From the NCBI RefSeq assembly GCF_013283195.1, contig NZ_JABEKT010000001.1, positions 62,001 to 126,000 on the forward strand: a stretch of 64,000 nt of DNA. The letters are read 5' to 3'. This DNA comes from Ensifer adhaerens. GTDB lineage: Bacteria; Pseudomonadota; Alphaproteobacteria; Rhizobiales; Rhizobiaceae. Positions within the stretch are counted from its first letter, which is position 1. Each line of letters opens with the position of its first letter. Below, piece after piece: positions 18,546 to 20,709 of this stretch. Below the pieces are notes generated by a model that worked only from the letters and a program-made list of their open reading frames with translations, was not told the origin of the DNA and made no database searches. Made by a program: the position numbers and the translations under genes.

Positions 18546-19616
18546 ATGCTTGAAATGAAGAAGATATCCAAGGTCGTGGGTGGGGAGACGCATATCTACC
18601 CGACCGATCTTGTGCTGCAGAGGGGGACGCTCAATGTGCTGCTCGGCCCAACCCTTTCCGGCAAGACGTCGCTGATGCGGCTGATGGCCGGCCTTGACAA
18701 GCCTGCCTCCGGTTCGCTGATCTTCGACGGCACCGACGTCACCGGCCTGCCGGTCCAGAAACGTTCCGTGGCCATGGTCTACCAGCAGTTCATCAACTAC
18801 CCGTCGATGACCGTCTACGACAACGTCGCCTCGCCGATGCGCATCAGGGGTTCGGACGCCGCCACGATCGACCGCGAGGTGCGCAAGGCCGCCGAACTGC
18901 TGAAGCTCACGCCCTATCTCGATCGCACGCCGCTCAGCCTGTCCGGCGGCCAGCAGCAGCGCACGGCGCTGGCGCGCGCCATCGTCAAGAACGCCGATCT
19001 CGTGCTTCTCGACGAACCGCTCGCCAACCTCGACTACAAGCTGCGCGAAGAATTGCGCGAGGAACTGCCGAAGCTCTTCGCGGCATCGGGCGCGATCTTC
19101 GTCTATGCGACCACCGAACCTTCCGAAGCCCTGCTTCTCGGCGGCAATACCGCTACGCTTAGCCAGGGCCGCATCACCCAGTTCGGCAAGACCATCGACG
19201 TCTTCCGTCGCCCGGTCGACCTGGTGACGGCACGAACCTTCGCCGATCCGCCGCTGAACACGATCGAACTCATCAAGTCGGGCCCGATCTTCACGTTCGA
19301 CGGCAAGCACGTTCTGTCTGTTCCCGTCCACCTTTCGGCACTGCCGGACGGCCCCTGCACGGTCGCCTTCCAGCCGCACCACCTGTCGTTCGACCGTCCT
19401 TTCGACGGCGCGACACCGCTGACGGTCAAGACGGCAATCTCTGAAATCGCAGGCTCCGAAAGCTTCATCCACGTCGGCTTTTCCGGTGCGCGCTGGGTCA
19501 TGCTGGCGCCGGGCATCCACGACATCGAACCGGACGCAACCCTCGAGGTTTTCGTCGACATCCGCCACCTGATGGCCTTCGGGCCGGATGGGCGCGCGAT
19601 CGGCAAGACGGCCTGA
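18546..19616 (+). CDS. glpS: glycerol ABC importer ATPase GlpS
   Basis: First of two ATPases of the rhizobial glycerol ABC importer, 356 residues, MalK-like with a C-terminal regulatory OB-type domain (after about 240). Walker A GPTLSGKT (34-41), intact signature LSGGQQQR (132-139), Walker B LLDEP with Glu157. The H-loop is altered: VYATTEP has Thr190 where family members have His. So GlpS offers a good signature motif but a weak catalytic site. Its partner GlpT shows the opposite pattern. It follows glpD by 52 bases and ends 22 bases before glpT. Confidence 0.92.
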   Translation: MLEMKKISKVVGGETHIYPTDLVLQRGTLNVLLGPTLSGKTSLMRLMAGLDKPASGSLIFDGTDVTGLPVQKRSVAMVYQQFINYPSMTVYDNVASPMRIRGSDAATIDREVRKAAELLKLTPYLDRTPLSLSGGQQQRTALARAIVKNADLVLLDEPLANLDYKLREELREELPKLFAASGAIFVYATTEPSEALLLGGNTATLSQGRITQFGKTIDVFRRPVDLVTARTFADPPLNTIELIKSGPIFTFDGKHVLSVPVHLSALPDGPCTVAFQPHHLSFDRPFDGATPLTVKTAISEIAGSESFIHVGFSGARWVMLAPGIHDIEPDATLEVFVDIRHLMAFGPDGRAIGKTA

Positions 19617-19638
19617 GGGGGCGCTGGGAGGAAAGACA

Positions 19639-20709
19639 ATGGCACGCATCGATCTCGAACATATCCGCCACGCCTATGGCGCCAAGCCGAAGTCGGAAAA
19701 CGACTACGCGCTCAAGGAAGTGCACCACGAGTGGAACGACGGCGGCGCCTATGCGCTGCTCGGACCGTCCGGCTGTGGCAAGACCACGCTGCTCAACATC
19801 ATCTCTGGCCTCATCAATCCGTCGGAAGGACGCATCCTCTTCGACGGCAAGGACGTCACGCATCTGTCCACCCAGGACCGCAACATCGCCCAGGTGTTCC
19901 AGTTCCCGGTGATCTACGACACGATGACCGTCTACGACAATCTCGCCTTCCCGCTTCGCAACCGGCATGTGCCGGAGACCGAGGTCGACCGCCGCGTCAA
20001 GGAGATCATCGAGATGATCGGCCTTGGCGGCTGGGCGGGCAAGAAGGCGCAAGGCCTGACGGCCGACCAGAAGCAGAAGATCTCGCTTGGCCGCGGCCTC
20101 GTGCGCTCCGACGTCAGCGCCATCCTGTTCGACGAGCCTCTGACCGTCATCGATCCGGAAATGAAATGGGTGCTGCGTTCGCAGATCAAGCGGCTGCACA
20201 AGCAGTTCGGCTTCACCATGGTCTACGTCACCCATGACCAGACCGAAGCGCTCACCTTCGCCGACAAGGTCGTCGTCATGTATGACGGCCAGATCGTGCA
20301 GATCGGCACGCCCGCCGAACTGTTCGAACGGCCGCGCCACACGTTCGTCGGCTATTTCATCGGTTCGCCGGGCATGAACGTTCTGCCGGCAAAAATCGAC
20401 GGCAGCACCGCCCAGGTCGGCGGCGAGAGCATTGCGCTCAACTTCCGGCCCGAGATCAAGTCCGGCGCCAAGACCGAACTCGGCATCCGCCCGGAGTTCG
20501 TGTCGATCGGCCGCGAGGGCATGCCGGTTGCGATCACGAAGGTCGAGGATATCGGCCGTCACAAGATCGTGCGCGCCCGCTTTGCCGACCAGCCGATCTC
20601 GATCATCCTCGACGAGGATGGCGAGATCCCTGCCGATCCACGCATCGCCTTCGACCAGAAGGCCATCAACATCTACGCCGATTCCTGGCGCGTCGGCGGG
20701 GAGGCCTGA
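19639..20709 (+). CDS. glpT: glycerol ABC importer ATPase GlpT
   Basis: Second importer ATPase, 356 residues (unrelated to the E. coli GlpT antiporter). Walker A GPSGCGKT (42-49), Walker B LFDEP with Glu166 and an intact H-loop YVTHDQ (His199). The signature motif is lost: residues 140-144 read LTADQ where LSGGQ is expected. The C-terminal domain from about 240 resembles MalK-type regulatory domains. The ATG at 19639 follows GGGAGGAAAG. Its stop is two bases before glpP. Confidence 0.92.
   Translation: MARIDLEHIRHAYGAKPKSENDYALKEVHHEWNDGGAYALLGPSGCGKTTLLNIISGLINPSEGRILFDGKDVTHLSTQDRNIAQVFQFPVIYDTMTVYDNLAFPLRNRHVPETEVDRRVKEIIEMIGLGGWAGKKAQGLTADQKQKISLGRGLVRSDVSAILFDEPLTVIDPEMKWVLRSQIKRLHKQFGFTMVYVTHDQTEALTFADKVVVMYDGQIVQIGTPAELFERPRHTFVGYFIGSPGMNVLPAKIDGSTAQVGGESIALNFRPEIKSGAKTELGIRPEFVSIGREGMPVAITKVEDIGRHKIVRARFADQPISIILDEDGEIPADPRIAFDQKAINIYADSWRVGGEA

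Follow-up and report, generated by a model that had tools for sequence, protein, structure and literature searches.

GlpS and GlpT of Ensifer adhaerens are two MalK-type ATPases that are encoded side by side in the 64,000-nucleotide stretch of DNA that we analyzed (positions 62,001 to 126,000 of contig NZ_JABEKT010000001.1; hereafter, the window). Judging by their sequences, they belong to a MalK-type importer that is heterodimeric and has one ATP site of the consensus type and another that is degenerate. We give a probability of about 0.7 to the following reading: in the GlpS:GlpT heterodimer, the consensus site drives transport, the degenerate site probably binds ATP with rare turnover or none, and one ATP is used per cycle.

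Complementary motif losses in GlpS and GlpT

Each ATP site of an ATP-binding cassette (ABC) dimer combines the Walker A and Walker B motifs and the H-loop of one subunit with the signature motif of the other subunit. GlpS and GlpT deviate from the usual motifs in five places: the A-loop, a Walker A glycine and the H-loop of GlpS, and the signature and D-loop of GlpT (Table 1). From the established arrangement of ABC dimers, all five deviations are predicted to fall on the site that contains the GlpS core, and none on the site that contains the GlpT core. For the D-loop we argue by analogy: an excerpted account of the exporter subunit TM288 has its D-loop reaching the nucleotide at the degenerate site, so the GlpT D-loop would belong with the GlpS core. 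If five deviations were placed at random over 14 motif slots, all would be on one site with p = 0.021, but the slots were picked post hoc, so this value is illustrative.

A sequence-only reading of this DNA had noticed that GlpS lacks the H-loop histidine and that GlpT lacks LSGGQ. When we re-read the sequence, its coordinates and residue numbers were right (LSGGQ, Thr190 and Glu157 of GlpS; LTADQ, His199 and Glu166 of GlpT), but it understated the case. Three further losses at the same site had been overlooked: the aromatic residue of the GlpS A-loop, Gly37 in Walker A of GlpS, and the D-loop of GlpT (TVID). There is good support for its proposal that one site is complete and the other doubly damaged, as the histidine or LSGGQ was regained in none of 164 GlpS and 163 GlpT sequences. 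As in other degenerate nucleotide-binding sites, an altered signature lies opposite an altered core while the other site is intact (by the known trans arrangement). Replacement of the Walker B glutamate, which is frequent in exporters but not universal, was not seen in GlpS.

The alignment behind these counts includes the window and draws on three sets of loci. The first set is 80 named loci, nearly all of them titled as Alphaproteobacteria or their genera, which are the best 80 of at least 592 confirmed relatives. The search patterns for this set contained peptides from the Q-loop and D-loop of GlpS; conservation of the other motifs is unaffected by this choice. The second set relies on DUF2160, a small membrane protein that accompanies this transporter and was found in 85 of 398 sampled Pseudomonadota genomes. 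It has 80 loci, one place per genome, and leaves out the genome of the window (G000), four others (G055, G123, G171 and G197), and six short secondary hits. The third set is 3 plasmid loci. One GlpS-like and one GlpT-like row come from a second type of pair, in Streptomyces, which is described below. The rows are related, so residue counts are not independent events. glpS and glpT are side by side on the same strand, with glpS first, at 83 of 83 loci (L111-L193), and they are adjacent in that order at 79 of 80 others (L001-L080; at L061 the contig stops behind glpS).

The altered residues of GlpS are nearly invariant. Position 190 is threonine in 159 of the 164 rows and serine in the other 5. 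Gly37 is lost in 159 rows (Leu in 143, Gln in 11, Ser in 3, and Met and His in 1 each) and present in 5. At position 11, in the A-loop, we find Val in 148 rows, Ala in 8, Met in 2, Ser in 2, and Ile, Phe and Arg in one each (one row fell outside the residues printed). In contrast, Gly34, Gly39, Lys40, Thr41, Gln80, LSGGQ, Glu157, and the N-L-D of the D-loop are each present in 164/164. GlpT shows the converse: Tyr13, Gly45, Lys48, Gln88, Glu166, and His199 are each found in 163/163, and so is the altered D-loop TVID, while the signature has GG in 0/163. The signature instead begins with Leu, followed by Thr (134), Ser (17), Gly (6), Ala (5) or Asn (1), then by Ala (157) or Pro (6), and then by Asp (162) or Ala (1). 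(At locus L065, the GlpT reading frame, at 8089, ends at 273 residues, which could be a sequencing error or decay.) On the tree, GlpS position 37 changed five times and position 190 once. In one clade (L130, L133, L134, L137 and L149), Ser190 and Gly37 of GlpS go with an altered GlpS Q-loop (HQFF) and with LSPDN in GlpT, and this joint change is a single event. Because the changed residues are nearly invariant in Alphaproteobacteria, in other Pseudomonadota (Caballeronia and Photobacterium are among those named) and in Streptomyces, the pattern suggests the way that this pump works rather than an accident.

The losses also exceed chance when judged, by sequence, against the other MalK-like ATPases of the genome. 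As a control we used 65 MalK-like open reading frames (ORFs), with hits down to E = 3.5e-31 and including GlpS and GlpT. (A few of the weakest hits, L256-L259 among them, resemble other importer ATPases.) Among the 65, 4 lack the H-loop histidine, 4 lack a signature of the form [LIM]SGG, 1 lacks the Walker B glutamate, and 2 lack the Walker A glycine. Eight of the ORFs form four adjacent pairs, which by eye are the sole hits within a few hundred bases of one another. In the 57 ORFs outside these pairs, there are 0 losses at the signature, the Walker A glycine and lysine, the Q-loop glutamine, the Walker B glutamate, or the L-D of the D-loop. The A-loop aromatic is missing from four of them (L254, L256, L257 and L258), and the H-loop histidine is lost in one (L253). 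L253 lies on the minus strand at 8331-9437 of L265, and its H-loop has glycine in place of histidine (LHVTGSEAE).

GlpS and GlpT otherwise look like ordinary MalK-type proteins. Their best profile matches are UgpC, PotA, MalK and similar models. AlphaFold models of the monomers (predicted local distance difference test, 89.8 for GlpS and 87.2 for GlpT) have the full MalK fold, including the C-terminal regulatory domain, and align with MalK-type structures along their whole length. Pfam's OB_MalK passes in GlpT only; nevertheless, the model and the alignments of GlpS span the whole chain. In the match to PDB entry 1v43, the H-loop histidine is aligned with Thr190 of GlpS. MalK and UgpC of E. 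coli have canonical motifs throughout, including the histidine and LSGGQ at the positions that are lost in GlpS and GlpT. (This GlpT is not the E. coli transporter that bears the same name. Its best start is the ATG at 19639, which has GGAGG ahead of it.)

Table 1. Motifs of GlpS and GlpT, neighboring genes, and other ATPase pairs of the genome (positions in the window unless a locus is named)
Feature	Positions	Strand	Remark
GlpS, MalK-type ATPase	18546..19616	+	intact signature and D-loop, degenerate core
GlpS A-loop region SKVVGG	18567..18584	+	adenine-stacking aromatic missing
GlpS Walker A GPTLSGKTS	18645..18671	+	Leu at Gly37 position
GlpS signature LSGGQ (132-136)	18939..18953	+	predicted to complete the GlpT (consensus) site
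GlpS Walker B LLDEP (Glu157) and D-loop LANLD	19005..19034	+	
GlpS H-loop VYATTEP (186-192)	19101..19121	+	Thr190 replaces His
GlpT, MalK-type ATPase	19639..20709	+	intact core, degenerate signature and D-loop
GlpT A-loop Tyr13	19669..19680	+	
GlpT Walker A GPSGCGKTT	19762..19788	+	canonical
GlpT signature LTADQ (140-144)	20056..20070	+	without GG
GlpT Walker B LFDEP (Glu166) and altered D-loop LTVID	20125..20154	+	
GlpT H-loop YVTHDQ (196-201), His199	20224..20241	+	
DeoR/GlpR-type regulator	16080..16844	+	best match PRK10906, 273.5 bits, under its cut-off of 331
GlpD, glycerol-3-phosphate dehydrogenase	16943..18493	+	upstream; 786 bits vs. cut-off of 360
GlpP permease	20712..21578	+	BPD_transp_1
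GlpQ permease	21600..22424	+	BPD_transp_1
Small membrane protein, DUF2160	22437..22718	+	at the place of glpU in published operons
Solute-binding protein	22796..24517	+	at the place of glpV
Pair 2, S2/T2	L226 1805-8493 (C1:1668804-1675492 of this genome)		full complementary pattern
Pair 3, S3/T3	L264 7010-9249	minus	polyol cluster
Pair 4, X/Y	L301 8865-10962		near symmetric; adjoins dihydroxyacetone-kinase-like ORFs (read from translations)

Gene context, related pairs and ancestry

The substrate is probably glycerol, judging by gene context. In gene order, the locus matches that of GlpSTPQUV, the R. leguminosarum glycerol importer; the published order is glpR-glpD-glpSTPQUV (PMC7912956; here and below, papers are cited for excerpts of their text). 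As expected for a CUT1-type importer, the operon encodes a solute-binding protein as well as two different permeases, both of BPD_transp_1. The single, homodimeric ATPase that is usual for CUT1 (though not universal) is not what we find, as there are two ATPase genes. glpSTPQUV is also named in Pseudodesulfovibrio (PMC11505543), and in Cupriavidus metallidurans, loss of glpR derepresses a relative of this transporter and raises resistance to zinc and cadmium (PMC7912956). Across up to 80 alphaproteobacterial loci, the median identity is 70% for GlpS and 73% for GlpT, as compared to 85% for GlpP, 88% for GlpQ, and 86% for the binding protein. We would have expected the ATPases to be more conserved than the permeases and the binding protein, not less; this was measured in this transporter alone.

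All four adjacent pairs that we found in the genome have polyol, alcohol or triose genes as neighbors. Pair 2 is most like GlpS and GlpT. Its operon runs from an alcohol dehydrogenase through a binding protein and two permeases to S2 and T2. The permeases are 28% identical to GlpP and GlpQ, and we found no match to DUF2160 or GlpD at this locus (L226). This gene order recurs in Ponticoccus (L263) and on a plasmid of Streptomyces (L111), and an Ensifer adhaerens record (L260) ends with part of the cluster. (In L260, the second permease, at 243-1567, is broken over two frames by a sequencing error or decay.) Three more pairs of this second type, from the genome of the window, Ensifer and Ponticoccus, agree with the pattern, although one T protein has LTAGE and one S protein has Gly at 37. 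A search of the Pseudomonadota sample for this type (E <= 1e-66, with five candidates scored per genome) matched 81 of 398 genomes. Outside of the genome of the window, these matches are at most 50% identical, and by eye they are at DUF2160 loci or at L297-L300. We considered the S-like hits at L297-L300 as additional pairs and rejected them: each has just one MalK-type ATPase by the permeases, with canonical motifs. Further members of the alcohol-dehydrogenase-linked type come from plasmids. DUF2160 was not found in the Streptomyces record, which is of the plasmid only, though the controls of that search also gave nothing.

The other two pairs are less asymmetric or asymmetric in another way. 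Pair 3, judging by gene content, resembles the polyol locus of S. meliloti, where genes for erythritol, adonitol and L-arabitol use are accompanied by mptABCDE (PMC3599248). Like GlpS/GlpT, it has two MalK-like ATPases, one without the H-loop histidine, but its asymmetry is built differently. S3 has Asp instead of the Walker B glutamate, Gln instead of the H-loop histidine, and LSNGQ for a signature. In T3, the Q-loop carries Glu and the D-loop reads QLE. All of these changes are seen at 4 of 4 loci (from 4 of 398 genomes at E <= 1e-85). Both sites of pair 3 would be somewhat damaged, so segregation is less clean. In pair 4, X and Y both keep the histidine and the glutamate; the signature of X is relaxed (L[AS][GAS]GD, with LSGGD in 6), and that of Y is LSGG[EQ]. 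This holds for 25 of 25 pairs with at least 50% identity, which come from the best 30 hits (5 hits at 45-47% lacked Y and were dropped).

In a careful tree of 81 sequences, GlpS and S2 form one clade (support 100/100), as do GlpT and T2 (100/100). The S and T lineages branch alike internally, except for L152; in other words, the two genes have been inherited together. Because the S and T lineages are each one clade, the asymmetry predates the divergence of the glycerol type from the alcohol-dehydrogenase-linked type. The two asymmetric ATPases have spread together and have reached the Actinomycetota (one Streptomyces plasmid was examined). S3 joins the S lineage (94/92), X joins the T lineage weakly (95/71), and T3 is unplaced. 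In a quicker tree of 116 sequences, GlpS and S2 again form one clade and GlpT and T2 another, where T2 branches from within GlpT. Neither best tree makes sisters of S and T, but a tree with S and T together is not rejected (approximately unbiased test, p = 0.432). If S, T, S3, X and Y are constrained to one clade, the tree gains 6.2 log units over the free search (p = 0.661 by the same test). The two-ATPase importers may have a single origin, which is compatible with the trees.

Probable use of the two ATP sites

We infer that GlpS pairs with GlpT. In a homodimer of either protein, both sites would be damaged, so only the combination of the two yields a good one, and the proteins would form an obligate heterodimer beneath the GlpP and GlpQ permeases of a CUT1 (MalK-type) importer. 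The complete site would be formed by the A-loop, Walker A and B, and H-loop of GlpT with the signature and D-loop of GlpS, and it would drive transport. The degenerate site would be formed by the GlpS core with the signature and D-loop of GlpT. It would lack the adenine-stacking residue, the Walker A glycine, the H-loop histidine, the Gly-Gly of the signature, and the standard D-loop, and would retain the Walker A lysine, the Q-loop glutamine, and the catalytic glutamate. Substitution of the H-loop histidine leaves less than 2% of the ATPase activity in MalK and HisP and less than 0.1% in HlyB (PMC6222333), and all human degenerate sites have a changed signature (PMC7756269). Since the GlpS core lacks both the histidine and the opposing signature, hydrolysis there should be very slow, whereas the GlpT core with LSGGQ should work. 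Single-site hydrolysis, which the sequence-only reading had proposed for glycerol uptake together with an ATP-holding clamp at the other site, is thus likely. The degenerate site would most probably bind ATP, close the dimer, and turn over rarely or never, and one ATP would be hydrolyzed per transport cycle.

Several observations weigh against this reading. The invariant Glu157 of GlpS (164/164) is not needed by a site that only acts as a clamp. In human exporters, the Walker B glutamate is the second most common change, after the signature, and changes in the H-loop often go with a change of this glutamate (both from PMC7756269). Losses in the A-loop and Walker A could indicate that ATP is bound weakly or not at all. 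The surroundings of the Q-loop are YQQFINY in GlpS and FQFPVIY in GlpT, as compared to FQSYALY in MalK, so the “complete” site is not letter-for-letter canonical. In the first set of loci, conservation of the GlpS Q-loop and D-loop is partly by construction because the search patterns included both. Finally, covariation between GlpS positions 37 and 190 and GlpT positions 141, 142 and 144 could draw on fewer than 6 informative pairs (from 154 of 163 paired rows that were left after thinning at 97%).

Some of these points would fit a pump in which both sites work, unequally, with the degenerate site still hydrolyzing ATP slowly. GlpS keeps Glu157, Lys40 and Gln80 without exception, human degenerate sites with a Glu-to-Asp change still seem to turn over slowly (PMC7756269), and the heterodimeric DppDF uses both sites (PMC12136057). 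We nevertheless view this as unlikely: the H-loop histidine and the opposing Gly-Gly are both gone, and in MalK the loss of the histidine alone has the severe effect given above (PMC6222333). Less probable still is that the degenerate site is empty, with the GlpS core as a structural partner and one bound nucleotide in the running pump. The loss of the A-loop aromatic and of Gly37 would impair binding and not only hydrolysis, but a structural role would allow drift, and Gly34, Gly39, Lys40, Thr41, Glu157 and Gln80 have not drifted at all. We consider it very improbable that the losses are neutral drift after duplication, without functional meaning. The lower conservation of GlpS and GlpT relative to GlpP, GlpQ and the binding protein would fit, yet the altered residues are near-invariant across distant groups and are confined to one site. 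That GlpS and GlpT serve separate transporters or form homodimers is scarcely credible, given the two damaged sites of each homodimer, the persistent adjacency of the genes beside a single pair of permeases, and trees that branch alike (L152 excepted).

Precedents and significance

The sequence-only reading had also held that such asymmetry is much less known in importers than in exporters, and this needs correction. LivF and LivG of E. coli, which are part of an importer, have complementary losses. LivF lacks the H-loop histidine (VEQN) and keeps MSGGE, while LivG keeps the histidine (EHD) and has LAYGD. The catalytic glutamate is present in both, as in GlpS and GlpT. One LivF/LivG pair from the genome of the window is similar (LSGGE and VEQN; LPYGA and EHD). 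Unlike GlpS, LivF keeps the A-loop tyrosine and the Walker A glycine, and it has PEG at the Q-loop. LivF and LivG also belong to another family of nucleotide-binding domains and permeases (presumably HAAT), and no LivF or LivG model is among the best 25 of the 174 profile matches for GlpS or of the 178 for GlpT. The asymmetry of the two systems is likely to be convergent. Because LivF/LivG share both the pattern and the intact glutamate, importers may form degenerate sites by losing the histidine and the signature instead of the glutamate. This suggestion is drawn from two families, and pair 3, with its change of Glu to Asp, counts against it.

Other known systems are alike in part. MalK (of MalFGK2) and UgpC share the fold, the regulatory domain and the CUT1-type permeases of GlpS/GlpT, and MalK-type chains are the nearest solved structures. 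The E. coli operons of MalK and UgpC have one ATPase gene, so these ATPases are homodimers, unlike GlpS/GlpT. The exporters TM287/288, TAP and Pdr5 have one degenerate composite site with a changed signature in the opposite nucleotide-binding domain, as here, and Pdr5 also lacks the H-loop histidine and carries LNVEQ (PMC7756269). Exporters with degenerate sites often alter the Walker B glutamate, which is invariant in GlpS, a part of an importer with a separate binding protein. Also, in exporters of the TM287/288 kind, the nucleotide-binding domain is fused to a transmembrane domain, while GlpS and GlpT are stand-alone proteins with separate permeases. DppD and DppF, from a dipeptide importer, are heterodimeric ATPases like GlpS/GlpT, but with two working sites: in DppABCDF, both single Walker B mutants (Glu to Gln) retain similar ATPase activity (PMC12136057). 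DppDF thus shows that heterodimeric importers need not be asymmetric.

One consensus site combined with one degenerate site is thus already known, and LivF/LivG are, by sequence, a precedent among importers. What is new is that the asymmetry is nearly invariant in a MalK-type importer, that it extends to two types of transporter, and that it has graded neighbors in one genome. We found no earlier description of asymmetric sites in GlpS/GlpT at the level of titles and the openings of abstracts, which does not establish that there is none in print.

Because one site has stayed discarded even in distantly related bacteria, this family can be used to ask if one hydrolysis per cycle is enough for an importer or two are required. 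It also lets one ask what a degenerate site with an intact catalytic glutamate is for. Graded intermediates for these questions are available in the same genome: pair 4 would be nearly symmetric, pair 3 half-degenerate, and pairs 1 (GlpS/GlpT) and 2 fully complementary. A possible but doubtful history is that importers of small polyols went, by such stages, from a symmetric MalK-type motor that uses two ATP to a heterodimer that uses one ATP per molecule, which would make it half as costly to scavenge a cheap carbon source.

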